Notes: a model not told the origin generated them from the letters alone. A DNA stretch of 44,095 bases from Patescibacteria group bacterium (GCA_028714455.1 JAQTMG010000005.1:19438-63532); one strand, 5' to 3'; shown: positions 5,931 through 43,410, counted from the first letter of the stretch. Made by a program: numbers and translations.

Positions 5931-5938
5931 CGACTCTT

Positions 5939-12748: not shown

Positions 12749-12782
12749 AACCCCTCACCTTTTCAGAGAAAAGGTGAGGGGT
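12749..12782 (-). terminator. Intrinsic terminator / hairpin directly downstream of the variable-protein paralog A
   Basis: aacccctcaccttttc-aga-gaaaaggtgaggggtt, 16-bp stem; T-run on the - strand. Confidence 0.85.
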
Positions 12783-12802
12783 TAAGGTTACAAGGTACAA
12801 GG

Positions 12803-13522
12803 TTACAGAACTGCGGCCCGGGCACGGAGGCTGCCACTGCAATGGCCAGGATTGTACCAGCCGACGTCCAGCTCGCTGTCGAGCCAGCCGACGCCCGGCA
12901 CGTCGCCAGCGTCATAGCGCGAACCCGAACAGAGCGTCACATTGTTGATGTCCAGGTGCTTATTGGTCTCCAGGAAATATTTTTGCTCACAGAGCAATCT
13001 TTCCTCAAGGGTAATGCCGATGATGCCTCTTTTTTTCAGCGTGTTAGCCGAAAGGTTCTTCAGCTCTTTGTCGGCTTCGATACGGTCGCGGAACCAGACG
13101 GCGTAAGCGTTGGTTTGGGCTGTTCTGGCCGAAGTGACGATCTTATCCAGGGCTAAATCGGTCCATTTCTGGCAGGGAAACATTTCCTTGCATTTGTCGT
13201 ACAGGCGCTGGGGTGTCATGCCCGGCACCACGATGATCAGGCGGTCAAAGCCATTCTGGTGTTCAGGAATCAGCAGGGAAGAAAAATCGGCTTCAAGACC
13301 GTAGACGTCTTTGTAGAATTTTTGCCAGTCGGCGATGATTTTGAATAATTCACGGCCTGTCTCGCAGGGTTTTCCCTCGATGATTTTCTGAAGCTCCCTG
13401 GCGACCCATTCAGGATCCAAGGGGCTTCCGTTTTTTTGATCCAGTTCCCGTTTGATTTCCCGCATTTTACGGTCAATCATTCGGTACTGATCGCCTGCGA
13501 CAGTAAACAATTTTACCGCCAT
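12803..13522 (-). CDS. Hypothetical protein, putative DGR-type variable protein (paralog A)
   Basis: AGGAGG SD before ATG; strongly similar to 28212-28940 except at the N-terminus and last 36 codons. Confidence 0.75.
   Translation of the reverse strand: MAVKLFTVAGDQYRMIDRKMREIKRELDQKNGSPLDPEWVARELQKIIEGKPCETGRELFKIIADWQKFYKDVYGLEADFSSLLIPEHQNGFDRLIIVVPGMTPQRLYDKCKEMFPCQKWTDLALDKIVTSARTAQTNAYAVWFRDRIEADKELKNLSANTLKKRGIIGITLEERLLCEQKYFLETNKHLDINNVTLCSGSRYDAGDVPGVGWLDSELDVGWYNPGHCSGSLRARAAVL
12806..12913 (-). other. Candidate variable region (last 36 codons of paralog A)
   Basis: Codon alignment against 28215-28322: 20 amino-acid differences, 16 of them keep the same third base. Confidence 0.55.
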
Positions 13523-13629
13523 GACAATCCTCCTTTCCCGTCTAGGGAATGCTAGGGGTTTTGTTCTTGGTTAACCTATTGCCGCTTCTAGTAAATTACA
13601 ATAATTTTATTAAAAGAACTTGATGTTTG

Positions 13630-13658
13630 ATTATAGCATTTGATTACAAAAATGTCAA
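13630..13658 (-). promoter_or_regulatory. Consensus sigma70 promoter
   Basis: - strand TTGACA, 17 nt, TATAAT. Confidence 0.85.
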
Positions 13659-13691
13659 TGTCGAAATTGCAACATTTATCTCGTTCTAGAC

Positions 13692-13780
13692 AAAAAATCG
13701 CTCTGAATAAATCCAAATACTTGTAGAGACACGGCGCGCCGTGTCTCTACTTTTTTACCCAAATCCATAGAGCGATTTTT
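13692..13780 (-). terminator. Terminator-like inverted repeat with a 28-bp perfect palindrome in its loop
   Basis: Outer arms aaaaaatcgctct (13692-13704) / agagcgattttt (13769-13780); inner gtagagacacggcgcgccgtgtctctac (13723-13750). Confidence 0.8.
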
Positions 13781-14696
13781 ATTTCAACTTTTTTAAAATT
13801 TTATAGCCCAAATACCAGAGTTTATTAATCGGCAGGTCAAAGCCACCCGCATACTGAATTTCAAAACCGCCAAAACCGGTTTTAAAACGAGTTACGCCAG
13901 GCCATTTTTTTTCATCAATACCCCAAAAATCATAATATTTATAACCCTCGGCTTTAGCCATTTTTATTATTTCCCATTGCAAAAGATGAGGCGCCATAAT
14001 ATTTTTGTCCTCGCTGGACGAACCGCCGTGCAAATAAGTTACTGTATCGCCATAGCGCAAAATCAAATTAGCGCACAAAACTTTACCCTGCCACTGTGCC
14101 AGATAGATTTTTGAGCCCACAAATGTCTCCAGTATTTTTTGGTAGTAATTCTTATTATAAATATTCAAACCTTTGCGCGAAAAAGTATTGGAAATTAGAT
14201 TATAGAATGTATCCAGATCTTTTGAGCCGCCCTCGCTAATGCTAACTCCCTTTTTCGCGGCCAGATTAATATTGTAACGAGTTTTGGGGTGCATCTCGGC
14301 CAAGAGTTCATTCTCGCTTTTACTTAAATCCAGTATTAAGGTTTTGCCCGGCTGGACAGAGTTTGTTTTTTTAAAACCCAAACTGCCCAAATCTTGTTTA
14401 ACCGTTTCAATTTTAATAAAAATGCACCTTTCTTGTTTTGCCAATAAGCGCAAATTACTTAACGCCGCGCCACCAAGTTCAGATTTGATTCTGGGGATGT
14501 ACAAATAACTCTTACCCAAAGGCAAAAGCATTTTGATTGCCAAAATATAACTACCACCAAAATCTAAGCGCCAGATCTTGCGCCCCAAACTTTTCTGAAA
14601 TTCGCCCCAGGACCAAGATTGTAAAAATTGGGCCATGTCAGATGCCCCAATTTTCTTATCCCAATCATCTTTATTTGTGATTTCCTTGAAGTCCAT
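13779..14696 (-). CDS. FemAB/FemX-like peptidoglycan aminoacyltransferase (GNAT fold)
   Basis: 'FLQSWSWGEFQKSLG', 'LAEMHPKTRYNINLAAKKGV', 'LHGGSSSEDKNIMAPHLLQWEIIKMAKAEGYKYYDFWG'. Confidence 0.9.
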   Translation of the reverse strand: MDFKEITNKDDWDKKIGASDMAQFLQSWSWGEFQKSLGRKIWRLDFGGSYILAIKMLLPLGKSYLYIPRIKSELGGAALSNLRLLAKQERCIFIKIETVKQDLGSLGFKKTNSVQPGKTLILDLSKSENELLAEMHPKTRYNINLAAKKGVSISEGGSKDLDTFYNLISNTFSRKGLNIYNKNYYQKILETFVGSKIYLAQWQGKVLCANLILRYGDTVTYLHGGSSSEDKNIMAPHLLQWEIIKMAKAEGYKYYDFWGIDEKKWPGVTRFKTGFGGFEIQYAGGFDLPINKLWYLGYKILKKLK

Positions 14697-15274
14697 TAGT
14701 ACTTTTTGCTTAATAATTGCAGGGCGGCTTTAACTTTCTTTTCCGTGCCCTTGATATTTTTATCCAATCGTCTAAGCACATCTCTGGCCTGATCAACCGA
14801 ATAACCCAAGCCGACTAAGGCATCAATCACGTCCGCGTCTTCTGATCTCATTATTTTGCCGCCAACCTCGGAAACACTCTTATATTTATTTTTTAATTCT
14901 AAAACAATTCTTTCAGCTGTTTTCTTGCCAATGCCAGAAATCTTGGTCAAAACCGAGGCGTCGCCGGAAATAATAGCTGATTCAATCTCATCAATCTTAG
15001 CAACTGACAAAGCATTGAGGGCGGTCTTGGGTCCAATGCCCGAAACGGAAATTAGCTTTTCAAACATTTCCAATTCTTCGCGGCTGGCAAAGCCGAAAAG
15101 GTCGAGTGCCTCTTCCCTAACATTTTGGTAAGTAAATACCTCGGTCTCCTGGCCGACTCTCGCTTTATTTAAAATATTCGCAGCGACAAAAATCTTATAG
15201 CCAACGTCATTAACATTGAGTTCGATAAAGTTTGCGCCAACATATTGAATTTTTCCTTTTAGATAGGAAATCAT
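14696..15274 (-). CDS. ruvA: Holliday junction branch migration protein RuvA
   Basis: MISYLKGKI...; HhH motifs 'LISVSGIGPKTALNALS' and 'LTKISGIGKKTAERIVLELK'. Confidence 0.96.
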   Translation of the reverse strand: MISYLKGKIQYVGANFIELNVNDVGYKIFVAANILNKARVGQETEVFTYQNVREEALDLFGFASREELEMFEKLISVSGIGPKTALNALSVAKIDEIESAIISGDASVLTKISGIGKKTAERIVLELKNKYKSVSEVGGKIMRSEDADVIDALVGLGYSVDQARDVLRRLDKNIKGTEKKVKAALQLLSKKY

Positions 15275-16512
15275 ATTGATTTTCTTAAAATAGTCATAAC
15301 CGGTACCTCCTTATTAAGTTTAACTAAAATCGCCTTGTCTTGTCCACCGTGCACTTCATCAACCATCTTTTTCTTATCCAAATCATAAATTTCGGCAATT
15401 TTTATTGTAAAGTTATCTTTCAGTGGCAAAATAAATTCAATTTGCTCCCCGACCTTAATTACATTGTGAACTTTTATTTTTATTTGCCAGGTGTGCTTGT
15501 CTATTTTTTTACTGTCCAAAACTTCGCCGCAAAATTCAAATTTAGAGCGATGATGCGTGGTGTCATAATTTTGCATCTTTAATTTTTCAGTAGCAAAATA
15601 AAAACCAGTCGTAAAATCTCTATTAGAAATTTTCTGCAATTCTTTAAATAAATTATTTATCTTAACCATTCGTATATTCGTAGGCATTCGTAACTCGTAT
15701 AGATTTATCGCCTGTCTATAAATCTTTACTACATTAGCTAAATAGGCCACGCTCTTTGTCCTGCCCTCAATTTTCAAATGTTTAATGCCCGCTTTTTTCA
15801 TTTCATTCAGATATTTAACCATACAAACGTCCTTGGAGCTCAAAATATAAGTGCCGCACTGATCTTCTTCGATGGGCAGGAACTCGCCAGGACGTGTTTC
15901 ATCTTCCATGTGAAGCTTATACGACCAGCGACAAGGATGGGCGCAGTCGCCTAGGTTCGCGGAGCGATTTGCCAAATAATTTGAAAGTATACAGCGGCCA
16001 GAATAGGCCATACACATGGCGCCGTGGACAAAACTTTCCAATTCTAACCCCGGAACTTTTTTATGGATTTCGCTTATTTCTTCCAAGCTTAATTCGCGGG
16101 CTAAAATTATTCTTTTGATTCCCTGCCTTTGCCAAAATTTAGCCGCCGGCCAGTTAGTGCAATTAGCCTGCGTTGATAAATGCAAATCAATTTTCTTCAA
16201 ATATTTTTTGGCCAAAACAATTACGCCCGGGTCAGAAATAATCACGGCATCCGGTTTTAACTTATTGAGCAATTTTAAAGTTTGCTCAACTTGCTTGAGA
16301 TGAAAATTATGGGCGTAGATATTCACGGTCACGTAAATTTTATTTTTTCGATCATGACAATATTTAATCGCCTCTTTTAATCTAGCAGGGGTAAAATCAT
16401 TGATTCTAGCGCGCAAACTCAAAGAAGGCAGGCCCAGATAAACCGAGTCAGCCCCGTGCGCTAAAGCGTATTTCATTTTGCTAAAGTTGCCAGCCGGCGC
16501 CAATAATTCCAT
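15271..16512 (-). CDS. Peptidase U32 family protein
   Basis: 'ELLAPAGNFSKMKYALAHGADSVYLG', 'ESFVHGAMCMAYSGRCILSNYLANRSANLGDCAHPCRW'. Confidence 0.95.
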   Translation of the reverse strand: MELLAPAGNFSKMKYALAHGADSVYLGLPSLSLRARINDFTPARLKEAIKYCHDRKNKIYVTVNIYAHNFHLKQVEQTLKLLNKLKPDAVIISDPGVIVLAKKYLKKIDLHLSTQANCTNWPAAKFWQRQGIKRIILARELSLEEISEIHKKVPGLELESFVHGAMCMAYSGRCILSNYLANRSANLGDCAHPCRWSYKLHMEDETRPGEFLPIEEDQCGTYILSSKDVCMVKYLNEMKKAGIKHLKIEGRTKSVAYLANVVKIYRQAINLYELRMPTNIRMVKINNLFKELQKISNRDFTTGFYFATEKLKMQNYDTTHHRSKFEFCGEVLDSKKIDKHTWQIKIKVHNVIKVGEQIEFILPLKDNFTIKIAEIYDLDKKKMVDEVHGGQDKAILVKLNKEVPVMTILRKSI

Positions 16513-16516
16513 AAAA

Positions 16517-16545
16517 TTGACAAGAGCATTTTAAAACTTTAAAAT
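16517..16545 (+). promoter_or_regulatory. Sigma70-type promoter
   Basis: TTGACA, 17 nt, TAAAAT. Confidence 0.7.
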
Positions 16546-16571
16546 ATAATAAACAAGTCGTGGAGGTAAAA

Positions 16572-17093
16572 ATGAATAGATTAAAAGCTGTCGGGTACAA
16601 AACTATTACTGTCTATGGCATCTACCTTCGGCAAGACTCGAATGGTTCTTTACAAGTTCTTTTAGTCAAAGACTGTTCGAATAGAACGGGATTTCGACTT
16701 CCTGGAGGAAAAGTAATTATCTCAAGCCGTGGCAAACAGCTCAAGAAGGAGAAACACAATCTTAGAAAGTTTGTTTATATGCAAAGCGGCTATAATCTTG
16801 AGACAAAAAAGCCTTCCGGACTTCCGACTTGCATAGTCTATACTTGGTCAGATGAGATTTATAAAGTCTACGACTTTAAAAAAACAAAAAAGATCATCAG
16901 CGGATACTGGTCAAGAGACAAAAAATTCATGGGCCAGATGTTCGACCTACGGAAAATACTTCACGATGAAGAGGTCGAAGAAATCGAATATACAACCGAA
17001 CTGATTTTGAAAAACTTCCGCTCGCTCAAATGGCGTAAATACTTCAAATCACAAACACTCGTCCCAGTCAAACCATTAGCCGTAGCTTCATAG
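16572..17093 (+). CDS. Nudix-fold-like hypothetical protein with degenerate Nudix box
   Basis: GGAGG SD before ATG at 16572; 'GFRLPGGKV' but no REUXEE motif. Confidence 0.55.
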   Translation: MNRLKAVGYKTITVYGIYLRQDSNGSLQVLLVKDCSNRTGFRLPGGKVIISSRGKQLKKEKHNLRKFVYMQSGYNLETKKPSGLPTCIVYTWSDEIYKVYDFKKTKKIISGYWSRDKKFMGQMFDLRKILHDEEVEEIEYTTELILKNFRSLKWRKYFKSQTLVPVKPLAVAS

Positions 17094-17107
17094 CTACGGC
17101 TTTTTTA
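17078..17107 (+). terminator. Intrinsic terminator
   Basis: agccgtagct-tcat-agctacggcttttttatt. Confidence 0.85.
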
Positions 17108-20042
17108 TTCCGACCCAGATTTTTAATCCGTTCACATCCAATTCTTTTTGCGAGTCCTTATCTAGTTTAATTTTTTCATTAACAAAATTTTTAGACAGCG
17201 TGCTCTTGGCCAATTCCTCGCCCGATTCCTTAATAGTTTTTAAAAGTTCCTTTTCTTTCGTCTCGTAATAAACCTCAATCGTATCGCTAATTGTCAGATC
17301 TAAATCCCTTCTCAACGCGTTAATAAATCTGACTAGCTCGCGCACATAGCCCTCGCGCTTTAATTCAACGCTTAGCTTGATATCAAGGCAAACTTTGTAA
17401 TTTTCATCAGCATTTATTTTTAAATCTTTTCCTGCTGGCAATTTTTCAACAACCTCAAGTTCTTTGACGTTAACTTCATCTTTAATCAGTGCAAAAAATT
17501 CTTCGGGTAAAGATTTCTTTGTGATAAATAATTTAGCCAGAGGTTGTCTGATCTTCATACCAGCTTCGGCTCGAACTGCCAGGGCCTGCTCAATCAATTT
17601 TCTGGCCGTCTCCATTTGTTCGAGAAGCTCTGTCTGGGCTAAGTCGGCCGCAAAAATTGGCCAGTTCTCCAAATGCACGCTCTCAAACGGACCGTGTAAT
17701 TTTTGATAAATATCCTCGGAGACAAAAGGCAAAAATGGCGCGCAAATTTTGGCTAAATTTATCAGAATATAATGCATGGTGGCCAGGGCATGTGCCTTAT
17801 CTTTCTGATCAGAGCCCTTGAATCTATCGCGACTTCTTCTTAAATACCAAGTGGATAGTTCATTAATGAAATCCATAATCGGCCTTGAGGCCTTAGTCAG
17901 ATCGAATATGTCCATTTGCTCTGTCACTTCCTTAATCAACAAATTAAATTTCGCGACAATCCATCTGTCTAGAATATTAGACAAGTCTTTCGACTTTAAT
18001 TCCCTGTCAAAATTCAGGCTCTTTTCATAAAGCGCGTAAAAACTATAAATGTTATTAAACAGCATGACTGTCTTGCGCAGCATCTCTTCAACTAGACGAT
18101 TGGAAAAACGGTAATCCTCGCCCATGGGCGTAGAGGCGAGCAAAAAGTAACGGATTGCGTCAACGCCTGTTTTGTCAATTAAAATGCCAGGCTCCGTGTA
18201 ATTTCTTAACTTTTTGGAAAGTTTCTTGCCATCCTCGGCCAAAATCAAGCCGTTAGCAATCACATTTTTATAAGCTGGCTTATCAAAAAGCGCCGTGGCC
18301 AAAACATGAAGTGTGTAAAACCAGCCGCGCGTCTGGTCCAAGCCCTCGCCGATAAAATCGCAGGGAAAACCTTTTTCAAATTTTTCTTTATTCTCAAAGG
18401 GATAATGATATTGGGCATAAGGCATTGAACCGGATTCAAACCAGCAATCAAACACTTCTTCAACGCGACTCATTTCTCCGCCGCACTGGCATTTGAATTT
18501 AATCTCATCAATGTAAGGTCTATGCAAATCCTTAATCTCCTCATTTTCCAACTCTGCTTTACTGCCCACAACTTTATAAGTACCGCATTTTTCGCACTGC
18601 CAAACCGGCAGAGGCGCTCCCCAAAATCTGTTGCGCGAGATATTCCAATCCCTGGCGCCTTCCAGCCATTTACCAAAGCGGCCTTCTTTAATATGTTCGG
18701 GCACCCAGCGGATACCTTCGTGCTTGCTGCCATTTGGGTCTGTTAGTTTCACACTCTCATTATTTTTTACCAACTGATCTTTGAATTTTGTGACTGCCAC
18801 ATACCAGGCATCAAGCGCGTAATAAATCAAGGGGCTATCACAGCGCCAGCAAAAAGGATAATCGTGTTCTATTTTGTCTTCTAACCCCGAGATGAGTATT
18901 TTTTTATCTTGTAAGTATTGCATGATCTTTGGATCTGCTTCTTTTACAAAAGTACCGGCCCAATCCTTCACTTCGGGTTTAAATTTTCCTTCGAGATCTA
19001 CGGCCATCACGACAGGCAGGTCATATTTTTTGCCGACCTCCATGTCTTCAACTCCAAAAGCCGGAGCTATGTGAACGATGCCGGTACCGTCGGCGACCGT
19101 CACAAAATCACTTTCGATAACATAATAAGCTTTTTTTTCTAACTTGCCCTTATAATAATCAAAAACCGGCTCATATTCCCAATTGACCAGCTCGCTACCT
19201 TTGTACAGCTCAACGATTTCATAATGATCCAGATATTTTTCTATCGCTTCCATTCGCGGCTTGGCCAAAATATAATATTCACGGCCCACCTTAACCTTGG
19301 CGTAGTCGATATCTTTGTTGACCGCCAGCGCCACGTTAGAAGGCAATGTCCACGGCGTGGTTGTCCAGACCAAAAAATAAGTGTCGGACTGATCTTTAAT
19401 TTTAACTTTAAAATATATCGAAGGATCTTTGGTCTTCTGATAATTCAAATTAACTTCAAAGTTAGCCAAGGGAGTACCGCATCTTGGACAATATGGAGCC
19501 ACTCGATAATCTTTATAGATTAATCCCTTATTAAAAAGTTGTTTAAAAACCCACCAGACCGTTTCAGTATATTCTGAATCCATAGTTGAGTACTGATTCG
19601 AGTAGTCAGCCCAGCGCCCTATTCTTGTAAATGTATCCTTCCATTCCCCCACGCACTTGAAAACTGAAGCCTGACAGCTGTTATTAAATAATCTAATGCT
19701 GTCATATTCATTGTCGGCCAGATTCAAAATCTGCTTTTTGGATTTAATTTTCATTTCCCTTTCAATCAAATTTTCAACAGGCAAACCATGGCAATCCCAG
19801 CCCACGGTGCGCTCAACTTTAAAACCTTTCATGGTCCAATATCTTGTGACCGTGTCCTTGAGAGTTGAAGCCAGAATGTGGCCATAATGCGGTGAACCAG
19901 AGGCAAAGGGCGGTCCGTCATAAAATGAAAAAACCGGCGACTTTTCGCGCTGTTTGACTGATTTCTCAAAAATTTTATTTTTTTCCCAAAAAGCGATGAT
20001 TTCTTCTTCTTTTTTGGCAAAATTGCTTTTCTGCTCTGCCAT
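17094..20042 (-). CDS. ileS: Isoleucyl-tRNA synthetase (start likely at 20042, MAEQKSNF...)
   Basis: 'PPFASGSPHYGHILASTLKD', 'TVGWDCHGLPVE', 'GKKLSKKLRNYTEPG'. Confidence 0.95.
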   Translation of the reverse strand: MAEQKSNFAKKEEEIIAFWEKNKIFEKSVKQREKSPVFSFYDGPPFASGSPHYGHILASTLKDTVTRYWTMKGFKVERTVGWDCHGLPVENLIEREMKIKSKKQILNLADNEYDSIRLFNNSCQASVFKCVGEWKDTFTRIGRWADYSNQYSTMDSEYTETVWWVFKQLFNKGLIYKDYRVAPYCPRCGTPLANFEVNLNYQKTKDPSIYFKVKIKDQSDTYFLVWTTTPWTLPSNVALAVNKDIDYAKVKVGREYYILAKPRMEAIEKYLDHYEIVELYKGSELVNWEYEPVFDYYKGKLEKKAYYVIESDFVTVADGTGIVHIAPAFGVEDMEVGKKYDLPVVMAVDLEGKFKPEVKDWAGTFVKEADPKIMQYLQDKKILISGLEDKIEHDYPFCWRCDSPLIYYALDAWYVAVTKFKDQLVKNNESVKLTDPNGSKHEGIRWVPEHIKEGRFGKWLEGARDWNISRNRFWGAPLPVWQCEKCGTYKVVGSKAELENEEIKDLHRPYIDEIKFKCQCGGEMSRVEEVFDCWFESGSMPYAQYHYPFENKEKFEKGFPCDFIGEGLDQTRGWFYTLHVLATALFDKPAYKNVIANGLILAEDGKKLSKKLRNYTEPGILIDKTGVDAIRYFLLASTPMGEDYRFSNRLVEEMLRKTVMLFNNIYSFYALYEKSLNFDRELKSKDLSNILDRWIVAKFNLLIKEVTEQMDIFDLTKASRPIMDFINELSTWYLRRSRDRFKGSDQKDKAHALATMHYILINLAKICAPFLPFVSEDIYQKLHGPFESVHLENWPIFAADLAQTELLEQMETARKLIEQALAVRAEAGMKIRQPLAKLFITKKSLPEEFFALIKDEVNVKELEVVEKLPAGKDLKINADENYKVCLDIKLSVELKREGYVRELVRFINALRRDLDLTISDTIEVYYETKEKELLKTIKESGEELAKSTLSKNFVNEKIKLDKDSQKELDVNGLKIWVGIKKP

Positions 20043-20152
20043 ACAAAATAATTTATTTATCTTAATCAATACGAATATTTTAGCTAAAATTTGGCTAAAA
20101 GTCAAAAATAAAATGACGCCTAAGCGCCATTTTATTCTATAAATCCTGGTCT

Positions 20153-20599
20153 TTATTTTTGTGTATCAGCTGGAGCAGGATTAGTGGAATTTGTTGGAGC
20201 GCCTGGATTTGGCATGCTTGGCCTGATCTGAATTGATTGAGCAGTAACACTACCATCAGTGTTTGTTGTCCCAGTAGCCATAATTGTTTCTCCTACGGTT
20301 AAGTCAGCTTTTGTGCCGCTGGCCATCTTTGATATCGGAGTTGAATCAGTTAACAGAATAATTTTTGAACCATTATTCGGAATTTTAACTGTGATGCTGC
20401 TGCTATCAATGGAAAGAATCTGGCCATTTACAAAATTGTCGTTTCCTTTCGCACCCCTAGCATCAATGCCGTTAGTAAATCCAGGCATATTTCTATTACC
20501 AGATTTATTGCCATGAGCAAGCAAGGTGCCGGCATAAAACGAAGCTCCACCGATTACAATAACCGCCACCGCGAGGGCAATAATCTTTTGTGCTTTCAT
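20153..20599 (-). CDS. DUF5666-like exported protein
   Basis: N-terminal TM/signal; 'VNGQILSIDSSSITVKIPNNGSKIILLTDSTPISK...LTVGETIMATGTTNTDGSVTAQSIQI'. Confidence 0.65.
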   Translation of the reverse strand: MKAQKIIALAVAVIVIGGASFYAGTLLAHGNKSGNRNMPGFTNGIDARGAKGNDNFVNGQILSIDSSSITVKIPNNGSKIILLTDSTPISKMASGTKADLTVGETIMATGTTNTDGSVTAQSIQIRPSMPNPGAPTNSTNPAPADTQK

Positions 20600-20634
20600 A
20601 AATTTATTAATTATTATTTAATTTAGCAAATTAA

Positions 20635-21858
20635 TTATTCGTACCTCAAAGCTTCAATCGGATTAAGTTTAGCTGCTCTGGTTGCTGGATAATAACCAAA
20701 GATAATCCCTATCGCCGCTGAAACTCCGAAAGCCAACAAAATTGAGGACAAACTAACTGTAGTTTGTATTAAACCCAAAAGAGTAATCCCCCAGGAAGCT
20801 GAAAATCCGATGATTATTCCAAGCAAACCACCAATAAAAGTAAGCGCTACGGCTTCAATAAGAAATTGCGAGCTGATATCTTTTCGCTTGGCTCCTATGG
20901 CTTTGCGCAAACCTATCTCTCTAGTTCTTTCTGTAACAGTTGTCAGCATCATATTCATGATACCGATGCCGCCGACCACCAATGAAATGCCAGCCACCGC
21001 ACCTAAAAGTATTGTAAAGGTTGAGGCGACGCTCGAGGCGGCGTTAGCTATGTCTGCCTGATTCATGGTGTTAAAATCGGCCAGAGTTGGATCGGAAATA
21101 TGATGGCGATCAAGGAGAAGGTTTGTGATATCCTGTTGGACAACCGAAGTTGAATCGGCGTCCTGCGCCGAAACACTTATATTGGAAAGATAATCGTCAC
21201 CTGTAAAATATCTCGTGGCTGTATTTAAAGGAATATAGATGGCATCATCCTGGCTGCCAAAACCGCTGCCACCCTTTGATTCTGTAACACCGATGATTTT
21301 AAATTCCATTTTATTTATACGAACTGTCTGGCCGATAACATCAGCCCCCTCACCGAAAAGATCATCGCGAGTTGAGGGTCCTAAAACTGCCACCTTGGCC
21401 AAATTTTGATTATTCTGATCGGTTATAAAATTACCGCTATCAATTTCAATATTTCTGACCACAGCATAATCGCTCGCCACACCCGTAACTTGAGTATTGG
21501 TATTCTGACCCTTGGCCGTAACCTGATATCTGCCGCTGACCTCTGGAGATACAGCTTTTATATTATTTACTTGATCTGCAATCGCCTGAGCATCCGCTAG
21601 CGTCAGGGATTTAGCAGAACCCCTGCCAGTGCTGACAAACGTTCCCGGCCCTCGCTGCGCGCCGTTGGACACAGTTATCATATTCGAACCGATAGATTGA
21701 ATGCTAGATTGAATTGAGCTTTGAGCACCCTGTCCGATTGATAACATCGTTATGACGGAGCCGATGCCAATAACTATGCCCAAAATCGTTAGACTGGAAC
21801 GTGCCTTATTAGCCGAAAGTGCGGATTTTGTTTCTTCAAATATGTCAAAACTTTTCAT
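20635..21858 (-). CDS. ABC transporter permease, MacB/FtsX type
   Basis: 'ANKARSSLTILGIVIGIGSVITMLSIGQGAQ', 'GIGIMNMMLTTVTERTREIGLRKAIGAKR'. Confidence 0.95.
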   Translation of the reverse strand: MKSFDIFEETKSALSANKARSSLTILGIVIGIGSVITMLSIGQGAQSSIQSSIQSIGSNMITVSNGAQRGPGTFVSTGRGSAKSLTLADAQAIADQVNNIKAVSPEVSGRYQVTAKGQNTNTQVTGVASDYAVVRNIEIDSGNFITDQNNQNLAKVAVLGPSTRDDLFGEGADVIGQTVRINKMEFKIIGVTESKGGSGFGSQDDAIYIPLNTATRYFTGDDYLSNISVSAQDADSTSVVQQDITNLLLDRHHISDPTLADFNTMNQADIANAASSVASTFTILLGAVAGISLVVGGIGIMNMMLTTVTERTREIGLRKAIGAKRKDISSQFLIEAVALTFIGGLLGIIIGFSASWGITLLGLIQTTVSLSSILLAFGVSAAIGIIFGYYPATRAAKLNPIEALRYE

Positions 21859-21860
21859 AA

Positions 21861-22550
21861 TTATTTGTTGTTAGTTTTAGAATCGCTCACTAGTGAACCA
21901 TCTCGAATTAAAATGACGCGGTCTGCATGTTGGGCAACATCATTTTCATGAGTAATTAAAATTATTGTTCTGCCCTGTTCTTTATTAAGCTTTCTAAAGG
22001 TTTCTAAAACAACTTCACCGGTTTTAGTATCCAAGTTCCCCGTCGGTTCATCTGCCAATATCAACACCGGATTATTAACTAAAGCCCGGGCAATGGCTAC
22101 GCGCTGTATTTGTCCACCAGACAATTGATTAGATTTATGATTAAAAAATTCTTCATCAAGCCCTGATGCCTTAAGAACTTCGATCGCCTGTTTTTCTCGT
22201 GTCTCTCGCTCAACTCCAGCATAAACCAGAGGCAAAATTACATTGCGGAGAACTGTGGCCCTGGGCAATAAATTAAAGGATTGAAAAACAAAACCAATTT
22301 TTTTCTTTCTTATATTAGCAAGATCATCTTCGCTAAGCGTAGAAACATCCTTTCCGTCTAATAGATAAGTTCCGCCAGAGGGAACATCGAGTGCGCCCAA
22401 GATGTGCATCAAGGTTGATTTCCCCGAACCCGAAGGACCCATTATAGCAACGTATTCGCCGTCATTAATTTTGAAACTCACTTCCTTTAGGGCTTGAAAT
22501 TCGGAACTTCCTATTTTATAGGCTTTGCTGATATTTTTAACTTCTATCAT
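21861..22550 (-). CDS. ABC transporter ATP-binding protein, MacB/LolD type
   Basis: Walker [36 protein letters not shown]. Confidence 0.96.
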   Translation of the reverse strand: MIEVKNISKAYKIGSSEFQALKEVSFKINDGEYVAIMGPSGSGKSTLMHILGALDVPSGGTYLLDGKDVSTLSEDDLANIRKKKIGFVFQSFNLLPRATVLRNVILPLVYAGVERETREKQAIEVLKASGLDEEFFNHKSNQLSGGQIQRVAIARALVNNPVLILADEPTGNLDTKTGEVVLETFRKLNKEQGRTIILITHENDVAQHADRVILIRDGSLVSDSKTNNK

Positions 22551-22562
22551 ATGATAATAATC

Positions 22563-24341
22563 TTATCGACTGAAATCACTCTGACGATTTGATGAACCAA
22601 ATAAACTAGGCGCCGAACTTGTCGTGCTTTTTGCCGTTGCAGACGTAACTGTTCTAGAAACAATCTGGTCACCTTCGTTAAGGCCCGAGATTATTTCCGT
22701 ATTAGTATCGTCAGACAGACCCACCTCAACCGACTGTCGGCTGGGAATAGTTAGGGAAATCACGCCTTGGCTGCTCGTGTCAGAATATTTTTGATCCAGG
22801 ATGAGCACATAGTTTGCATCGTTTAACGTCTTTATGGCAGAACTGGGGACAACTAGCACATCCACTTTTGAATCTGTAATAATAGAAGCGGAAACGCTCA
22901 TGCCTGGCTTAATTCTTTCATCCTGCGTGTCAAAACTGATTTTTGCACTATAAGAGACCACGCCCTGACTAACGGTTCCAAGCGTATCAATATCCGCTAC
23001 CTGTCCCGTTATACTTAAACTTTCTATCGCATCAAAAGTCAGAGTCGCCTTCTGGCCCACTTTAACTTTTGCCGCATCAACTTCGTTGAGAGAAATCTCT
23101 GCAATTTTTTGTTTGGTAATTATAGTGGCCAGCGCGGTACCCGATGAAACGGAATCACCTTTTTTAACGTCGATACTCGCCATCACGCCGTCAAAAGGAG
23201 CATAAACGTAATATTTACTCAACGTCTCTCTAGCATCGGCCAGGGCATTCTGTCTTTGTTTCAGAGTCAACTCCTGTGACTGTAAGTCAAGTGGGTCCGT
23301 GCCAGCCTTTAGGTCTTCGAGTGATTGAGTTTTTTCATCAATACTTCTTTGAGCGTCAATGATTGCTTGTTTGCCGCTTTCAATTGAGTTCTTAACGGAA
23401 AGCAAATCGGACAGGTGGCCATTAGCGGTACCGGTGCAACCATTGAGTTCGGTTAAAAGGGTATCAGCTTCTGGCAGGGTCCGCATATTGTGCACGGTCA
23501 GTTGATCCTTATAAAATTGGATTAGATTGTAATTATTTTTAATTGATTCGGCGACATCTTTGGTCATGGTATATGTCTCATCTATTAACGCCCCGACAGT
23601 AGCGGTATCTGAAAGCCTGCTTGTAGATTTGTAGTCCGCATAGGCTTTGTCATACTCGGCTCTCGCCTTTTGGTATGATTTTAAGGTGGCATCGCGATAT
23701 TCAAAAATTTTGGCGTCATAATTTTCAACCGCGTTGGTAAAATAATCAAGATTCCATTGGCTACTTTCGCCGAGTGAACTGCTGAATAAAATATCATCCA
23801 GTCCAGACATGATATCCGGTAAATCTAAAAAGGCATTGGCAATGGAGTTGAAGCCATCCTCGTAGGTCTTTTGAAGATTATCTTCGGCTTTAGTTTTTGT
23901 GTCCTGCGCCGCAGCCAAACTATTTTCAGTTTGCATCAAAGAAAGTGAATCGATTGGCTTTTGTAATTTCTGTAAAGAAATTTTGGCCGAATCAAGATTG
24001 GCCTGTGCATCCCTGACCGATTTTTGGGCATCACTATTATCTAAACGAACCAGTAGAGTCCCCACCCCAACTTCCTGTCCGTTTTTTATACCGACAAACA
24101 TGACATCGCCGGAGGCCTTGGCCTTAATATCTATCTGGCTAGCCGCGCTCACCTGGCCGCTGCCAGAGATTGAGGAAATTATTGTCCCCTTTTCAACATT
24201 TGCCAAAACATAACGCGTCTGCGCATCGTTGCCGGCAAAAGTTTTAAACCCAAAATAAACGCTAATGACTATGGCTATAACCAAAGCTACGCCTGCCGCC
24301 ACTTTATGCCGTAAAACAAGTTTGGAAATTTTTGAAAACAT
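22563..24341 (-). CDS. Periplasmic-adaptor (HlyD/MacA-like) protein
   Basis: 'SISGSGQVSAASQIDIKAKASGDV...VRLDNSDAQ', long coiled coil, 'YAPFDGVMASIDVKKGDSVSSGTALATI'. Confidence 0.92.
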   Translation of the reverse strand: MFSKISKLVLRHKVAAGVALVIAIVISVYFGFKTFAGNDAQTRYVLANVEKGTIISSISGSGQVSAASQIDIKAKASGDVMFVGIKNGQEVGVGTLLVRLDNSDAQKSVRDAQANLDSAKISLQKLQKPIDSLSLMQTENSLAAAQDTKTKAEDNLQKTYEDGFNSIANAFLDLPDIMSGLDDILFSSSLGESSQWNLDYFTNAVENYDAKIFEYRDATLKSYQKARAEYDKAYADYKSTSRLSDTATVGALIDETYTMTKDVAESIKNNYNLIQFYKDQLTVHNMRTLPEADTLLTELNGCTGTANGHLSDLLSVKNSIESGKQAIIDAQRSIDEKTQSLEDLKAGTDPLDLQSQELTLKQRQNALADARETLSKYYVYAPFDGVMASIDVKKGDSVSSGTALATIITKQKIAEISLNEVDAAKVKVGQKATLTFDAIESLSITGQVADIDTLGTVSQGVVSYSAKISFDTQDERIKPGMSVSASIITDSKVDVLVVPSSAIKTLNDANYVLILDQKYSDTSSQGVISLTIPSRQSVEVGLSDDTNTEIISGLNEGDQIVSRTVTSATAKSTTSSAPSLFGSSNRQSDFSR

Positions 24342-24358
24342 AGAAATGTCTATATGGA

Positions 24359-24931
24359 TTAATGAAATATTTTAAACGGTACAAAATTCGCGGACGGAGT
24401 CGGAGGTGGTGGCGGAATTACCCTTATCAGTTTTGCCGCTATCTGACCAATGCTGTTGGGCTCGCCGATCACGACGACAAAATCACTGATTTTTAATTCT
24501 GATGGGCTTATGTCTCCCCTGAAATGGCGTACTATGGTATCTCTGCTAACCAAAATAATCCTTTCAGCTTTATCGTTTCCGCTTATCACTAACGATTGAC
24601 CTTCGTTTTTTAAAATCTGGCCAAACACGCCATGAGATTCTATAAAATCCTCGTTGCCAAATTCATTTAAAAACCCTCCCTTGGGTCCAGCAAAATTTTT
24701 GTGATAATTCTCTCCCCATTGGTAAGAAAAATTTGCTTTTCTCGTTCCGATATTCTGCCCTACTTTAAAAACCAGAAGAAGAATTATGAGGGCGGCGACG
24801 GCGAAAACAAAATATCTAAAAGTAACAGAATGGAAAAAAGCAATATCTCCGTTTTTCTTTTCGGATAAATTTTCAATTGGTTTTTTTTCAACTGATTCAC
24901 TGGGATTATTGTCCTGATTAATATTGTCCAT
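24359..24931 (-). CDS. Membrane-anchored DUF5666-like protein
   Basis: One TM; 'HGVFGQILKNEGQSLVISGNDKAERIILVSRDTIV'. Confidence 0.5.
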   Translation of the reverse strand: MDNINQDNNPSESVEKKPIENLSEKKNGDIAFFHSVTFRYFVFAVAALIILLLVFKVGQNIGTRKANFSYQWGENYHKNFAGPKGGFLNEFGNEDFIESHGVFGQILKNEGQSLVISGNDKAERIILVSRDTIVRHFRGDISPSELKISDFVVVIGEPNSIGQIAAKLIRVIPPPPPTPSANFVPFKIFH

Positions 24932-24936
24932 ATTTT

Positions 24937-25353
24937 TTATAAGTTAATAATTAATTTTTGACGAAAAGAGTTAAATTCACGAACCGAAAATTTGATTGAT
25001 TCAATAAAAATCAAAAATACCGTAAGAAAGATAAATATACTGAAAACCGGCAGTGATTCTAAAAGCGTAAGCAAAAAATTCTGCCAATAAATTACAACTG
25101 TTTCAAAATCAGAGAAAAGAAGATTGAGATATTGAGTAAAACCGGATTCTATCAGGCCATTGCGCATAAATTCAAAAGCCGGAATTAATTCAACCGCTGA
25201 ACCAATTAAAAATAATAAAAAAACAGCAAACTTCACGGCGCTTTTTATAATCATCAAACGGCGCTCTGCCTGTATCCTGCTTAAAATTTTCCCCAAAAGC
25301 ATATTTGATGGTTCAAATTTTTCGTAATTAAATTGTTTCTTTTTCCCTTGCAT
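24937..25353 (-). CDS. Hypothetical membrane protein downstream of the sigma factor
   Basis: Two predicted TM segments; near-contiguous with neighbours. Confidence 0.55.
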   Translation of the reverse strand: MQGKKKQFNYEKFEPSNMLLGKILSRIQAERRLMIIKSAVKFAVFLLFLIGSAVELIPAFEFMRNGLIESGFTQYLNLLFSDFETVVIYWQNFLLTLLESLPVFSIFIFLTVFLIFIESIKFSVREFNSFRQKLIINL

Positions 25354-25414
25354 GCTATTTAATACGAAAAAAAATACACCTTTGGTGCATTTTTTTTATA
25401 ATTATTGCCTCAAG

Positions 25415-25978
25415 TTAGCCAATATTAAACAACTTTCTGAGACGGAAAACTCCCCTTCTATATCTGCTTCTAACCGTATTAAGCGGTTCACCAAGAGCTA
25501 TGGCTATCTCATTGAATGAATATCCGAGATTAAGTCGCAGCTCAAAAATTTTGCGAGTTTTTATTGAAAGCCTAGCGATTACTGAACTCAAATTTTCCGC
25601 TTCCTCTTTTCGCTCCAATACTTCATCGGGAAGCAAAGAAACATCTTTAATATTTTCCAAAAATAAATTATCAGCTTCCTCGTTTTCAAATGTTGAAAAT
25701 GGAATTGTTTTTTTCTTTCTTGAAAAATCAATAACAGTATTTTTAGCTATGCAAAAAAGCCAGGTCTTAAATTTTCTATTCGTCTCATATTTATTTATAT
25801 TTTTCCACATTTTTACAAAAACTTCTTGAGTTAAATCTTCTGCCTCAACTGAATTTTTGGTTAAAACAAAAATAAAGCCGTAAATTGGCTTTAAATATCT
25901 TTTAATTAAAATCTCTAGCGATTTTTGATCGCCGGACAAATAATTGAGAACTAAATTTTCGTCATTTATTTTGTCCAT
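25415..25978 (-). CDS. RNA polymerase sigma factor, ECF subfamily
   Basis: 'YGFIFVLTKNSVEAEDLTQEVFVKMWKNI', 'LRLNLGYSFNEIAIALGEPLNTVRSRYRRG'. Confidence 0.94.
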   Translation of the reverse strand: MDKINDENLVLNYLSGDQKSLEILIKRYLKPIYGFIFVLTKNSVEAEDLTQEVFVKMWKNINKYETNRKFKTWLFCIAKNTVIDFSRKKKTIPFSTFENEEADNLFLENIKDVSLLPDEVLERKEEAENLSSVIARLSIKTRKIFELRLNLGYSFNEIAIALGEPLNTVRSRYRRGVFRLRKLFNIG

Positions 25979-26096
25979 ATTTGTGGACCGGACCCCTCAC
26001 CTTTTTGCGTATTTGCAAAAGGGTGAGGGGCGGGACGATATACTGATTAATTTTTTTCTAAATACTATCTTCGCACAATTGATTCGTAATTTTCTG

Positions 26097-26169
26097 TGGA
26101 CCGGACAGGACTTGAACCCGCTACCTCCTCGGTGCAAACGAGGCGCTCTACCAGGTGAGCTACCGGCCC
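26097..26169 (-). tRNA. tRNA-Ala(UGC)
   Basis: Acceptor GGGCCGG/CCGGTCC; anticodon arm CCTCG-TTTGCAC-CGAGG; T-loop GTTCAAG. Confidence 0.95.
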
Positions 26170-26267
26170 CGTTAGAAGTTCAGTGGTTTTTATTGTATAT
26201 ACAATGATCATACTACAAGCCGAATCAATGGCTTGTGATTGATTCCACTAAACTTCTAACGGGGCCG
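26164..26267. repeat. 23-bp inverted repeat overlapping the 5' end of tRNA-Ala
   Basis: cggccccgttagaagttcagtgg (26164-26186) / ccactaaacttctaacggggccg (26245-26267), one mismatch; inner palindrome attgtatatacaat at 26192-26205. Confidence 0.9.
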
Positions 26268-26500
26268 TCCCCCTCGACATTTTGGTCGGGGAGCACAGAT
26301 CTAAATAAAAAAAGTTCTTACGAACTAAAATTATTATATCAAAAATTTTTTTTCATGTCAATGGACGCTGGAAAAAAATAAATTTTAAAAAATCTATAAA
26401 GTTATCCACAGCCCCGGGTAAAAAATCATTCTTTTATCTGTAAAAAAGAACTATAATTAAGGTAGAAAAATAATATGCCTAAATAATTAATCTTAAAGAA

Positions 26501-26596
26501 ATGGCAAAGAAAAGAAAAGCTGCTAAAAAGAGAAAACCAGCTAAAAGACGCAAGGCTACAAAAAGAAAAAAAGCAGCTAAAAGACGAAGGAGATAA
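26501..26596 (+). CDS. 31-aa Lys/Arg/Ala-rich basic peptide (histone H1-tail-like)
   Basis: MAKKRKAAKKRKPAKRRKATKRKKAAKRRRR*, with TATAAT upstream and a strong terminator downstream; too short for the supplied ORF track. Confidence 0.65.
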   Translation: MAKKRKAAKKRKPAKRRKATKRKKAAKRRRR

Positions 26597-26616
26597 AATT
26601 TTCTTCGTATAAGCAA

Positions 26617-26658
26617 CAACCCCGCACCATTTAATTAAATGGTGCGGGGTTGTTTATG
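26617..26658. terminator. Bidirectional intrinsic terminator
   Basis: aacaaccccgcaccattt-aatt-aaatggtgcggggttgtt, 18-bp perfect stem. Confidence 0.85.
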
Positions 26659-26672
26659 GTAATTTCTTTGTC

Positions 26673-27968
26673 CTAAATCAAACTTGCCTGTTGGAATTTT
26701 TTTCTTTCCTTGCCGTTAAAAATTTGAACTTTACCAAAGATTCCGTCATAGCCTGGGTCAATAATTAACTTTCCCTCTCTGACTCTTTTAATGCCCTCGG
26801 CAATTTCGGGCACAGTTATCTTTTTTAATTCTTCCAAACTTAAATCCAATAAAATTTTAAATTCATTTCCTCCCTTTTTGATCATGTTAAAATATTCTTC
26901 CTGCACTCTTTTGGAATTTTTCCCCACCTCAAACGCTTCGGCAATAATTTCTTGAAGCGGCACCATGCTTTTGAAGGGAATATGGCCGTTCAACTCACCG
27001 ATCTCTCGATCGGCCAGATCATCAACTCTGTGGAGCACGCCAATGGTCAGTGGCTTTTTATCAATCGGACAGATATTTTTATTTTTCTTGGCCACCTGCG
27101 GCGTGACAGAATAATTATGGCTGGCATGTCCATCATAATGATATTTGCCTTCCTCGGGAAAAAATTCAACTGTATACAAAAATTTCTTCTTATCCTGATT
27201 TTTTAAAGTATTATAAATTTCATCGTAAGAACTCTGTTCAAAGTCAAAAACATTTGCTTCTCGGCCTAGATTGGGCAGAGAGTGCGCGTCAGAATTGGAA
27301 ACTAAAGTTATTTTATCCAGGGCAGAGAGCCGCCAGTTCATGGGCGGGTCAGAAGAAAGACCCGTTTCAATGGCAAAAATATTTTTAGCATATTCGCCAA
27401 AGCATTCTTCAATAGTATCGAATCCCGATTTGGAACCAAAAATGGAAAACCATGGCGTCCAAGCATGTGCCGGAATAATCAGCGCCTTCTTATTGATGTT
27501 CAAACTTATTTTTGTCAGCTCAATCGCTGACATGCCCAAAATCGGTCGTCCGTCTGATTTTAAATTATAACCGCCCCTTTCCAAGTACTCATTAAATTTC
27601 TCTACATCAGATATTTCTGGAAAAAAAATGTTAATGTGTATTCTGCGACATTTATCTCCTTGTTTATAAATACAAGAAATCTCTGTGCCCAAAATAAATT
27701 TGGTCCCAACTGCCGACGAGTCTGTCATGGTGAGCATAGCCGAACCATCAGACGAGGAGGCGAATTTTTTTAATTTATATAACCCATTCCCAAGCGGTTC
27801 TAATTTACTTTTTATTTCTTTAAACCAAGCTGGATGAGTAAAGTCGCCAGTCGCCACAATATCAATACCTTTTATTTGACACCATTTATCAATATTTTCC
27901 AATGTTAAATCCTGCGAGCAAGCCCGCGAGTATTTGGAGTGAATGTGTAGGTCTGCGATTTGACGCAT
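26673..27968 (-). CDS. PHP-domain protein, EndoQ-like (endonuclease Q family)
   Basis: 'ADLHIHSKYSRACSQDLTLENI', 'GTEISCIYKQGDKCRRIHINIFFP', 'LTIGVLHRVDDLADRE', 'GYDGIFGKVQIF'. Confidence 0.75.
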   Translation of the reverse strand: MRQIADLHIHSKYSRACSQDLTLENIDKWCQIKGIDIVATGDFTHPAWFKEIKSKLEPLGNGLYKLKKFASSSDGSAMLTMTDSSAVGTKFILGTEISCIYKQGDKCRRIHINIFFPEISDVEKFNEYLERGGYNLKSDGRPILGMSAIELTKISLNINKKALIIPAHAWTPWFSIFGSKSGFDTIEECFGEYAKNIFAIETGLSSDPPMNWRLSALDKITLVSNSDAHSLPNLGREANVFDFEQSSYDEIYNTLKNQDKKKFLYTVEFFPEEGKYHYDGHASHNYSVTPQVAKKNKNICPIDKKPLTIGVLHRVDDLADREIGELNGHIPFKSMVPLQEIIAEAFEVGKNSKRVQEEYFNMIKKGGNEFKILLDLSLEELKKITVPEIAEGIKRVREGKLIIDPGYDGIFGKVQIFNGKERKKFQQASLI

Positions 27969-28149
27969 AATATTAAATTCTAAGCACTGATATCTAAATA
28001 CTAAACAATATTAAATGTTCTAAATCCAAAACTTAAGTTAGAATATTTAGATTTATTTTTTGAATTTGTTTAGAGTTTAGGATTTAGCATTTAGTATTTT
28101 ATTGAAAGTATTCCAATTTTAGCATTTTTTTAATTTATTGTAAAAAGAA

Positions 28150-28185
28150 AAACCCCTCACCTTTTCTTTGAAAAGGTGAGGGGTT
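28150..28185 (-). terminator. Intrinsic terminator / hairpin directly downstream of paralog B
   Basis: aacccctcaccttttc-ttt-gaaaaggtgaggggtt; T-run on the - strand. Confidence 0.85.
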
Positions 28186-28211
28186 AAGGTTACAAGGTAC
28201 AAGTTACAAGG

Positions 28212-28940
28212 TTACAGAACTACGGAGCGAGAACGAAGGTTGTCATGGGAGTTGCCAGGGCTGCAGCCGCCGACGCGCATCCTGCCGTCGCCCCAGTACA
28301 CGTACGGCACATCGCCATCGGAATAGCGAGAACCCGAACAGAGCGTCACGTTATTGATGTCCGGGTGTTTGACGGTTTCCAGGAAATATTTTTGCTCATA
28401 GAGAAATCTTTCCTCAAGGGTGGTGCCGACGATGCCTCTTTTTTTCAGCGTATTGGCCGAAAGGCTCTCCATTTCTTCGTCGGCTTCAACACGGTCGCGG
28501 AACCAGACGGCATAGGCGCCGGTTTTGGCCGTTCTGTCCGAGGTGACGATTTTATCCAGGTCCGCCTCGGTCCATTTCCAGCAGGGAAACATTTCCTTGC
28601 ATTTGTCGTATAAGCGCTGGGGCGTCATACCCGGCACCACGATAATCAGGCGGTCAAAGCCCTTTTGGTGTTCGGGAATCCGCAGAGAGGAAAAATCGGC
28701 TTCGATTCCGTAGACCTGGCGGTAGAAGTCCTGCCATTCACGAACCAGGCTTGACACATCAACGGCAAGTTTCGGGATTTTTTTTGCTTCAAATATCTGT
28801 TTGCCCTCAATAAGCTGCTGAAGCCCATCCATTACTGGTTGGAACTCAACCGATCCCCTGGCAAAACGCGTCAGTAGTTCGTGTGTCCGTTTCGACACCC
28901 TGCCATACTGCTCGTCTGTGACAACTTGTTTAGTCGTCAT
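28212..28940 (-). CDS. Hypothetical protein, putative DGR-type variable protein (paralog B)
   Basis: Near-identical core to 12803-13522 (DFSSL.IPEHQ.GFDRLIIVVPGMTPQRLYDKCKEMFPC.KWT...); SD AGGAGG. Confidence 0.75.
   Translation of the reverse strand: MTTKQVVTDEQYGRVSKRTHELLTRFARGSVEFQPVMDGLQQLIEGKQIFEAKKIPKLAVDVSSLVREWQDFYRQVYGIEADFSSLRIPEHQKGFDRLIIVVPGMTPQRLYDKCKEMFPCWKWTEADLDKIVTSDRTAKTGAYAVWFRDRVEADEEMESLSANTLKKRGIVGTTLEERFLYEQKYFLETVKHPDINNVTLCSGSRYSDGDVPYVYWGDGRMRVGGCSPGNSHDNLRSRSVVL
28215..28322 (-). other. Candidate variable region (last 36 codons of paralog B)
   Basis: SDGDVPYVYWGDGRMRVGGCSPGNSHDNLRSRSVVL versus DAGDVPGVGWLDSELDVGWYNPGHCSGSLRARAAVL in A. Confidence 0.55.
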
Positions 28941-29107: not shown

Positions 29108-29110
29108 AGA

Positions 29111-29216
29111 CTGGCAATGACCTACTTTCCCCCCGAAGGAGTATCATCGGCGCTGACTGGCTTAACTTCCGAGTTCGGAATGGGATCGGGTGTGACCCAG
29201 TCGCTAAAATCACCAG
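29111..29216 (-). rRNA. rrf: 5S rRNA
   Basis: - strand ...GGGTCACACCCGATCCCATTCCGAACTCGGAAGTTAAG...GTAGGTCATTGCCAG. Confidence 0.93.
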
Positions 29217-29555
29217 ATAAAGTTAGAGAAATAGATTCTCTAACCGCAATCTATTGATTTTATTTTCTACATTTTTTGTGGTTAAACAATGGGCTATTAG
29301 TACAGCTCGGCTAAAAGTGTTACCACTCTTACACCTACTGCCTATCAACCTGGTAGTCTACCAGGGCCCTATGAAACCTAATCTTGGGGACAGTTTCACG
29401 CTTAGATGCTTTCAGCGTTTATCTAAACCAAACTTGGCTACCCAGCGATGCCCTTGGCAGGACAACTGGTACACCAGAGGTTTGTCCTTCTCGGTCCTCT
29501 CGTACTAGAGAAGGGACCCCTCAAGTTTCGACGCCCATAGCGGATAGGAGACCGA

Positions 29556-30327
29556 CAAATATGTTACATTCTTTTTTTGAATGGCGCATTTATTGCGCTC
29601 TGCATGTCGCCATGCAGTTCGGACTATATCTTATCCCAATTTTATTTGGGATTCTGACGTATAGTCTCTGAGGATTTCAAAGAGTATATAATCTCATCTT
29701 GACTCTTTTTTCGATACTTACCTTGCTGATTCATTTGATAAGCCATCTTAATAATTCTTATAATTCCAGCTTTTTCAGAATGGCCACCTTCATTCATCAG
29801 GGTAATTATCTCTTTAAAGAGTTGAAAACTCTTGGCTTTATTTGAAATCAAAGGAAATTTTTCAAAAAATGGAATAATTTTATTCATTAAATCTTCTCTA
29901 TTTCTCACTACATAGACCAAAGTGTCATCTTCAAAATTATTGGCATGATTGCGCTTTAAATAACCGCAACCAAAATATCTTTCTATTGCCAATAAAGTTT
30001 CTTTTCTAAGAAAACTTTGATTTATGTGAAATTCGGGAATTATCTTAATTCCGTATTTCATTCTTGGATCTTTATAGAGAGCGACATGAAATGTTCCTTC
30101 GCCTTCGGTAAAGCCAGTTATATACCATGGATTAATAATCTTTGATCTTTCCTGCTGATTGTCTGCGCTCATCACTTTTTCACTGGTTATTTTTCTCATA
30201 CATTTATATTATAACCTAGTAGTGTGAGATTCACAAGCCTCACTCCTAATGAGGCCTTTCAGATTTTCCAGCATATAGTCAGATTTATAGACAGCACGGT
30301 CTTTGACTAAAATTAGCCAAAATTTCT
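29556..30327 (-). other. Group I intron in 23S rRNA (between E. coli ~2604 and 2605)
   Basis: Exon junction ...GACAGT|TCGGTC... restores the conserved 23S sequence; 5' exon ends in U, intron ends in G; P7-type elements CAGAGACTATACG and AAGATATAGTCC. Confidence 0.92.
29642..30199 (-). CDS. LAGLIDADG homing endonuclease, I-CreI-like, encoded in the group I intron
   Basis: Single motif 'WYITGFTEGEGTFHVAL'; 'KETLLAIERYFGCGYLKRN...PFFEKFPLISNKAKSFQLFKEII'. Confidence 0.92.
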   Translation of the reverse strand: MRKITSEKVMSADNQQERSKIINPWYITGFTEGEGTFHVALYKDPRMKYGIKIIPEFHINQSFLRKETLLAIERYFGCGYLKRNHANNFEDDTLVYVVRNREDLMNKIIPFFEKFPLISNKAKSFQLFKEIITLMNEGGHSEKAGIIRIIKMAYQMNQQGKYRKKSQDEIIYSLKSSETIRQNPK

Positions 30328-30956
30328 ACTGTCTCACGACGTTCTGAACCCAGCTCACGTGCCGTTTTAATTGGCGAACAGCCAAACCCTTGGAACCTTG
30401 TTCAGCTCCAGGATACGACGAGCCGACATCGAGGTGCCGAACCTCCCCGTCGCTGTGGACGCTTGGGGGAGACTAGCCTGTTATCCCCGGAGTAGCTTTT
30501 ATCCGTTGAGCTTCCGCCGTCCTAAATCGTACGGTCGGATCACTTAGCCCAGCTTTCGCTACTGCTTTTCTTGTAGGAATCGCAGTTAAGCCAGCTTATG
30601 CCTATGCACTATCAGTTCCGTTTCCATCGGAACCTAGCTGACCTTTGTGGACGCCTCCGTTACATTTTGGGAGGCAACCGCCCCAGTTAAACTACCCGCC
30701 AGATACTGTCTCCTGATCCGGTTTACGGACCAAAATTAGAATTAAAACTAGACAAGGGTGGTATTTCAAGGGTGCCTAAGCTCCCACCTATGCTAAACAT
30801 GTCTAGCCCTAACTCAATATCAAGTTGTAGTAAAGCTTCACGGGGTCTTTTCGTCCAGCTATGGGTAATGAGCATCTTCACTCATCCTGCAATTTCGCCG
30901 AGTCCTTCGTCAAGACAGTTCTCAAGTCGTTATGCCATTCGTGCGCGTCGGAACTC

Positions 30957-31003
<47 letters not shown>

Positions 31004-31147
31004 GCGTTCATCCGCGCTTCGGTTCAGGGCTTGCACCCCTCCCCTTAACGTTCGGACACTGGCCAGGCATCAGCCCCTATACATAAGCTTGCGCTTTCGC
31101 AGGGACCTGTGTTTTTGGTAAACAGTCGCTTGAGATCTTTAGCTGCG

Positions 31148-32102: not shown

Positions 32103-32138
<36 letters not shown>

Positions 32139-43403: not shown

Positions 43404-43410
43404 CATTAAA

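Follow-up and report, generated by a model that had tools for sequence, protein, structure and literature searches.

Six variable genes of a Patescibacteria genome are probably targets left behind by a diversity-generating retroelement that was lost recently

We propose that six genes of a Patescibacteria-type bacterium are targets left without their diversity-generating retroelement (DGR) by its recent loss, a reading to which we assign a probability of roughly 0.7. The host genome (G000) comprises 893,211 bases in 16 contigs with an estimated completeness of 100%, and the window analysed here is a 44,095-nucleotide stretch of its contig C5 (GCA_028714455.1 JAQTMG010000005.1:19438-63532). According to this model, an error-prone reverse transcriptase (RT) would have copied a non-coding template repeat (TR) while misreading adenines, and the mutated cDNA would have taken the place of the final ~115 bp of each target gene, so that AAY-type codons were randomised and the other positions stayed as they were. 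Several paralogs would have been served by one or more templates, at a time when they had already diverged and the sister species had already split off. The TR, Avd and RT would then have been lost, including from a site between trxB and leuS, leaving six genes under purifying selection.

Two of these genes lie in the window. Paralog A (12803-13522, minus strand, 239 aa) and paralog B (28212-28940, minus strand, 242 aa) are both real open reading frames. A is built from a variable N-terminal module, a conserved middle section (WxxFYxxVFG...RDRxEAD...TLEER...HLDxxNxTLCSGSR) and a C-terminal variable region (VR). The VR of A (12811-12928, minus strand) is co-extensive with the TR homology of the sister-genus cassettes described below (TCGGGTTCGCGC ... 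GCAG), and that of B occupies 28220-28337 (minus strand). An initial reading, made from the sequence without database searches (hereafter the sequence-only reading), had described the two genes as nearly identical from DFSSL to NVTLCSGSRY and sharply divergent thereafter. The first part was somewhat strong, as 103 of 123 amino acids (84%) and 86% of nucleotides are identical from DFSSL to SGS, and the N-termini show weak relatedness at most. The second part stands: the last 36 codons contain exactly 20 amino-acid differences, with the third base unchanged in 16 of them, and only the limits need adjusting, the TR-homologous VR starting slightly upstream of the coordinates first given, at the TCGGGTTCGCGC codons.

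The excess of first- and second-position change that the same reading had noticed is borne out by codon-position counts. Between A and B, 22 of 246 first and second positions differ upstream of the VR versus 26 of 70 within it (p = 1e-7), a contrast far beyond chance, while third positions change at an equal rate in the two sections (28/123 and 8/35). A and B are not the most informative pair. When A is compared with L003, a paralog on contig C4, 20 of 70 first and second positions differ in the VR and none of the 35 third positions do, and 19 of the 20 changes fall on template-adenine sites.

Searching the genome with protein B identified six full-length paralogs: A, B, L003, L005 (contig C2), L006 (C3) and L007 (C1). 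All six are intact open reading frames. The window also contains a seventh, truncated relative (34030-34389, minus strand, 119 aa), whose VR-like end is short and degenerate (NNVVIPAGAGNVPRAYWRGGKLSV...; profile match at C5:53485-53637, E 2e-6). The constant regions of the G000 paralogs show an omega of ~0.2, indicating that the target proteins are under purifying selection; the repertoire is constrained and probably frozen. The N-terminal ~60 residues have been swapped between members of the family: the N-terminus of L003 has 35 of 45 residues in common with L021 from the sister species G001, and its body resembles A and B. Neither Pfam, NCBIfam, PADLOC nor PHROGs provided a name for the family.

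An AlphaFold model of B residues 60-242, produced with a deeper alignment, reached a pLDDT of 97.1 and a pTM of 0.93, with the VR forming the last strands of the domain. An earlier model based on 10 sequences had a pLDDT of 76 and gave weak lectin-like matches only. With the better model, Foldseek returned no significant match in the PDB or among viral structures; the nearest matches include C-type lectins, weakly (best E 0.66, to human MCL lectin, TM ~0.25), and the predicted elements follow one another in an order that a C-type-lectin-like fold would allow. By analogy only, these proteins might recognise partner or phage surfaces. The frozen proteins would still be in use, probably in recognition.

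Downstream of the targets, further elements are conserved. The sequence CTTGTACCTTGTA follows the stop codon of A (12789-12801, minus strand) and is also found after B (28191-28203, minus strand); it is kept both in the G000 targets and in those of the sister genus. Beyond it lies a 13-bp hairpin followed by a T-run (12751-12781 for A and 28153-28183 for B, both minus strand), whose stem covaries, with five pairs showing double-sided change across eight targets and none of 500 shuffles scoring as high. The hairpin is a plausible terminator and may also, or instead, act in retrohoming. The downstream flanks of L006 and L007 are near-identical over ~130 bp, though the genes themselves are only 77% identical. 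A dispersed, REP-like palindrome (GTAGAGAC..GTCTCTAC) occurs at window positions 13723-13750, behind targets in L017 and L016, and behind a retron-like RT in L013.

The role of these genes becomes clear from complete cassettes in relatives. The closest relative of B is a target with 63% identity on L022, the best-matching GTDB contig, which belongs to a Ca. Parcubacteria genome (G004) of the same family as G000. Here, at a trxB-leuS locus orthologous to that of G000, the order is target-TR-Avd-RT-leuS. The TR measures 115 bp and is rich in AAC/AAT codons, the RT contains the motifs GLPLGNLTSQ and YTDD, and the putative Avd is a short opposite-strand ORF, read as such from its position and helical look. 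TR and VR differ at 17 positions, all of them adenine in the TR. A second genome of the family (G003, contig L036) has target, TR and RT in the same arrangement. TR and VR disagree 132 times across seven intact cassettes with this type of target: 124 mismatches lie on TR adenines (247 sites) and eight on the 572 non-adenine sites, which is the canonical pattern of adenine-specific mutagenesis. Further DGR cassettes with other target families occur in the same GTDB family (L033, L037, L038, L039, L040 and L042), some with in-frame stops in their RTs; the RT of G001 itself contains an in-frame TGA and adjoins a different target family. DGR turnover in this GTDB family looks fast.

The same mutagenic footprint is present in G000. 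As test sites we used 33 positions where both sister TRs have adenine and 64 where neither does, these sister TRs standing in for G000's own template. Between A and L003, changes affect 19 of the 33 TR-adenine sites and one of the 64 non-adenine sites (p = 2e-10), and L007 differs from L020, its ortholog at the same locus in G001, at 22 of 33 and 9 of 64, respectively (p = 4e-7). Sites that are adenine in the L036 TR are likewise more often variable (30/36) than non-adenine sites (31/69, p = 1.5e-4). The bias is not significant in every pair (for A/L006, for example, p = 0.4), a result to be anticipated had more than one template contributed and substitutions followed.

Silent sites show the complementary effect. 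Third-position changes are scarcer in the VR than upstream for A/L003 (0/35 vs 31/123), B/L006 (9/35 vs 76/120) and L006/L007 (4/35 vs 45/120), and dS falls from 0.47 upstream to 0.00 in the VR for A/L003 and from 0.81 to 0.16 for L006/L007. The homogenised tract runs from TCGGGTTCGCGC to GCAG, the very bounds of TR/VR homology in L022. The adenine-site bias, together with this homogenisation, leads us to conclude that a shared template overwrote the gene ends when the paralogs were already distinct. Timing can be narrowed further. The absence of silent change between the VRs of A and L003 (0/35) limits their silent divergence to at most ~9% (95%), compared to 42/120 for orthologs of G000 and G001, so that the split between these two species clearly predates one or more of the rewriting events.

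With VRs at the 3' ends of their ORFs, homologs in complete cassettes and silent-site transfer into the VRs, A and B are DGR targets, as the sequence-only reading had suggested: their sister-genus orthologs sit in complete cassettes (TR, Avd and an RT with GLPLGNLTSQ/YxDD), and their changes are concentrated on template adenines.

The machinery itself was a different matter. The sequence-only reading had supposed that an RT and TR might lie elsewhere in the genome, an idea not supported by whole-genome profile searches, which found neither in G000 yet recovered both in sister genomes, absence being defined throughout by E-value thresholds. No DGR RT was detected in the G000 assembly with the L022 RT or with a profile of seven RTs (A3), searches that found RT remnants down to 67 aa in length elsewhere. 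Nor did the whole assembly yield a TR when searched by pattern, at the DNA level and with a protein profile. The target profile (A1), which detects the TRs of G003, G004 and seven or more further genomes, matched only targets in G000. A guessed template core (GTGCCGAACGTGAACTGG, <=3 mismatches) matched only paralog B in G000, and BLAST with the L022 TR gave short chance-level or target matches, with one match on C2 lying inside an unrelated ORF. Avd was found neither at the leuS locus nor at the contig ends of G000.

At the leuS locus, both G000 and G001 have a target followed by leuS with ~270 bp between them, and G003 retains only a broken RT remnant. Since the target and leuS are this close inside continuous contigs, the whole cassette is missing from the leuS site in G000. 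The leuS gene of G000 also carries an in-frame, ~154-aa nucleotidyltransferase-like insertion (L017:8582-9043) that is absent from leuS of the sister species.

True loss of the cassette, as opposed to an assembly gap, is the likelier explanation for this pattern. The alternative is that the DGR is intact and active, its TR, Avd and RT having fallen into an assembly gap or been binned away, and that it diversifies six remote targets in trans; we regard this as unlikely, if by no means negligible. The absence of any silent difference between the VRs of A and L003 implies very recent activity, and this could reflect an RT that is present but missing from the assembly just as readily as a recent loss; the rewriting of the L007 and L020 orthologs after speciation is similarly in keeping with a hidden element. 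Nearly all DGR RTs in the GTDB family sit no more than ~2.4 kb from the end of their contig, so assemblies may tend to miss cassettes, and in several target-bearing genomes (e.g. G329, G208 and G362) the RT is far from the targets. Against this stand the completeness estimate of 100% and the state of the G000 assembly, in which 12 of 16 junctions close by contig-end overlaps of 127-580 bases, several with 1-8% mismatch, leaving about four open. The contig ends contain no fragment of RT, Avd or TR. Most of the contig breaks correspond to graph overlaps, either exact ones of 127 bp or longer ones with 1-8% mismatches, and the start of C1 is a 96% variant of window positions 43197-43446, pointing to strain variants in the sample.

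A wider survey argues in the same direction. The target family occurs in 43 of the 381 genomes sampled from the class. Ten of the 43 lack any match to the DGR-RT profile; one of the ten, G121, matches the target family only weakly. Nine of the ten contain no RVT_1 domain at all, and the tenth is G000 with its retron-like RVT_1. RT-less genomes are not rarer among the well-assembled ones: they make up 5 of the 12 genomes with <=20 contigs and 5 of the 31 more fragmented ones (contig counts rounded), and include the one-contig G175 and the two-contig G016. Fragmentation is therefore not the general cause of RT absence. Broken RTs, with in-frame stops or split into pieces, are frequent.

A further possibility, an improbable one, is that the cell encodes no DGR RT or template of its own and the G000 targets are still being rewritten by machinery provided in trans, whether by a virus, a partner cell or a different replicon. 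The sole hint of such supply, a weak one, is the viral contig L078 (IMG/VR 3300047994_000219, 60.9 kb), which encodes a target homolog without an RT.

More doubtful still is the idea that the only RT of G000 took over diversification of the targets. This gene, the single RVT_1 match in the genome (contig C3, L013:8866-10218, minus strand, 450 aa), was considered as the missing DGR RT and rejected: it has the motifs QGAPTSP/YADN, matches retron profiles (NCBIfam retron_St85, E 4e-32, below the cut-off of that profile) and has no VR-like sequence in its flanks. The same-genus genome G002 encodes an RT of this type, 60% identical, and has no target gene. Rfam at its gathering threshold found no retron RNA in L013; the non-coding stretch upstream of the gene appears hairpin-rich by eye. 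Ordinary paralog divergence through positive selection or recombination hot spots, with no retroelement involved, can be dismissed as the origin of the variation: fast-evolving C-termini are common in surface or recognition proteins, but here the changes avoid third positions and cluster on sites that are adenine in the templates of other genera (p = 2e-10), which selection does not predict, the VR silent sites are less diverged than those upstream, and the orthologs have an adjoining TR and RT.

Viewed against known systems, the left-over repertoire of G000 is a known type of system in an unusual state and not a new kind of system. DGRs are well known in CPR bacteria, where one RT clade is restricted to this group (Roux et al. 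2021, PMC8144416). The sister-genome cassettes resemble these in host kind, RT motifs (LPLGNLTSQ/YxDD), an Avd-like ORF beside the RT, a ~115-bp TR with AAY codons and a C-terminal VR ending in LRxR, a likeness at the level of these features. G000 differs in retaining targets only, with RT and TR not found. Target-only fragments, with VR and cis elements and adenine-directed changes but no adjoining RT, have been described in the DUSEL4 Nanoarchaeota, where they were read as fossils or as cases of remote diversification (Paul et al. 2015, PMC4372165). Four complete DGRs are present in that same genome, whereas G000 has six full targets and neither RT nor TR in its assembly, and the former cassette site of G000 can be identified by synteny. 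As in G000, dispersed paralogous variable proteins occur in cyanobacteria, where they share one TR (PMC7517822); unlike G000, those genomes keep a cassette. Retrons of the St85/type II-III RT group, near which the only RT of G000 belongs, show no relation that we could find to the variable genes. A literature search on DGR loss found nothing relevant. What is new here is the combination of six full targets without machinery in the assembly, a named site of excision or decay, and a count of RT-less genomes that applies to this sample.

DGRs are usually found via their RT. Targets cut off from their machinery are thus invisible to RT-anchored surveys, and the CPR survey itself states that targets remote from the RT were not detected (PMC8144416). 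A target-protein profile reveals them, in about a quarter of the sampled target-bearing genomes of the class (10/43). A long-standing question can thereby be tested: whether DGRs are lasting adaptive devices, or passing mutators that disappear once they have supplied a gene family with binding variants, in which case a fixed repertoire under selection would remain after their loss.

There are two further, minor observations. The homolog on L078 (positions 5794-6453) has a VR-like end, which suggests that targets move between Patescibacteria and their viruses. Within the window, a LAGLIDADG-homing-endonuclease-like ORF (29642-30199, minus strand) adjoins the 23S rRNA gene (30275-33390, minus strand), with the 5S rRNA nearby at 29109-29217.
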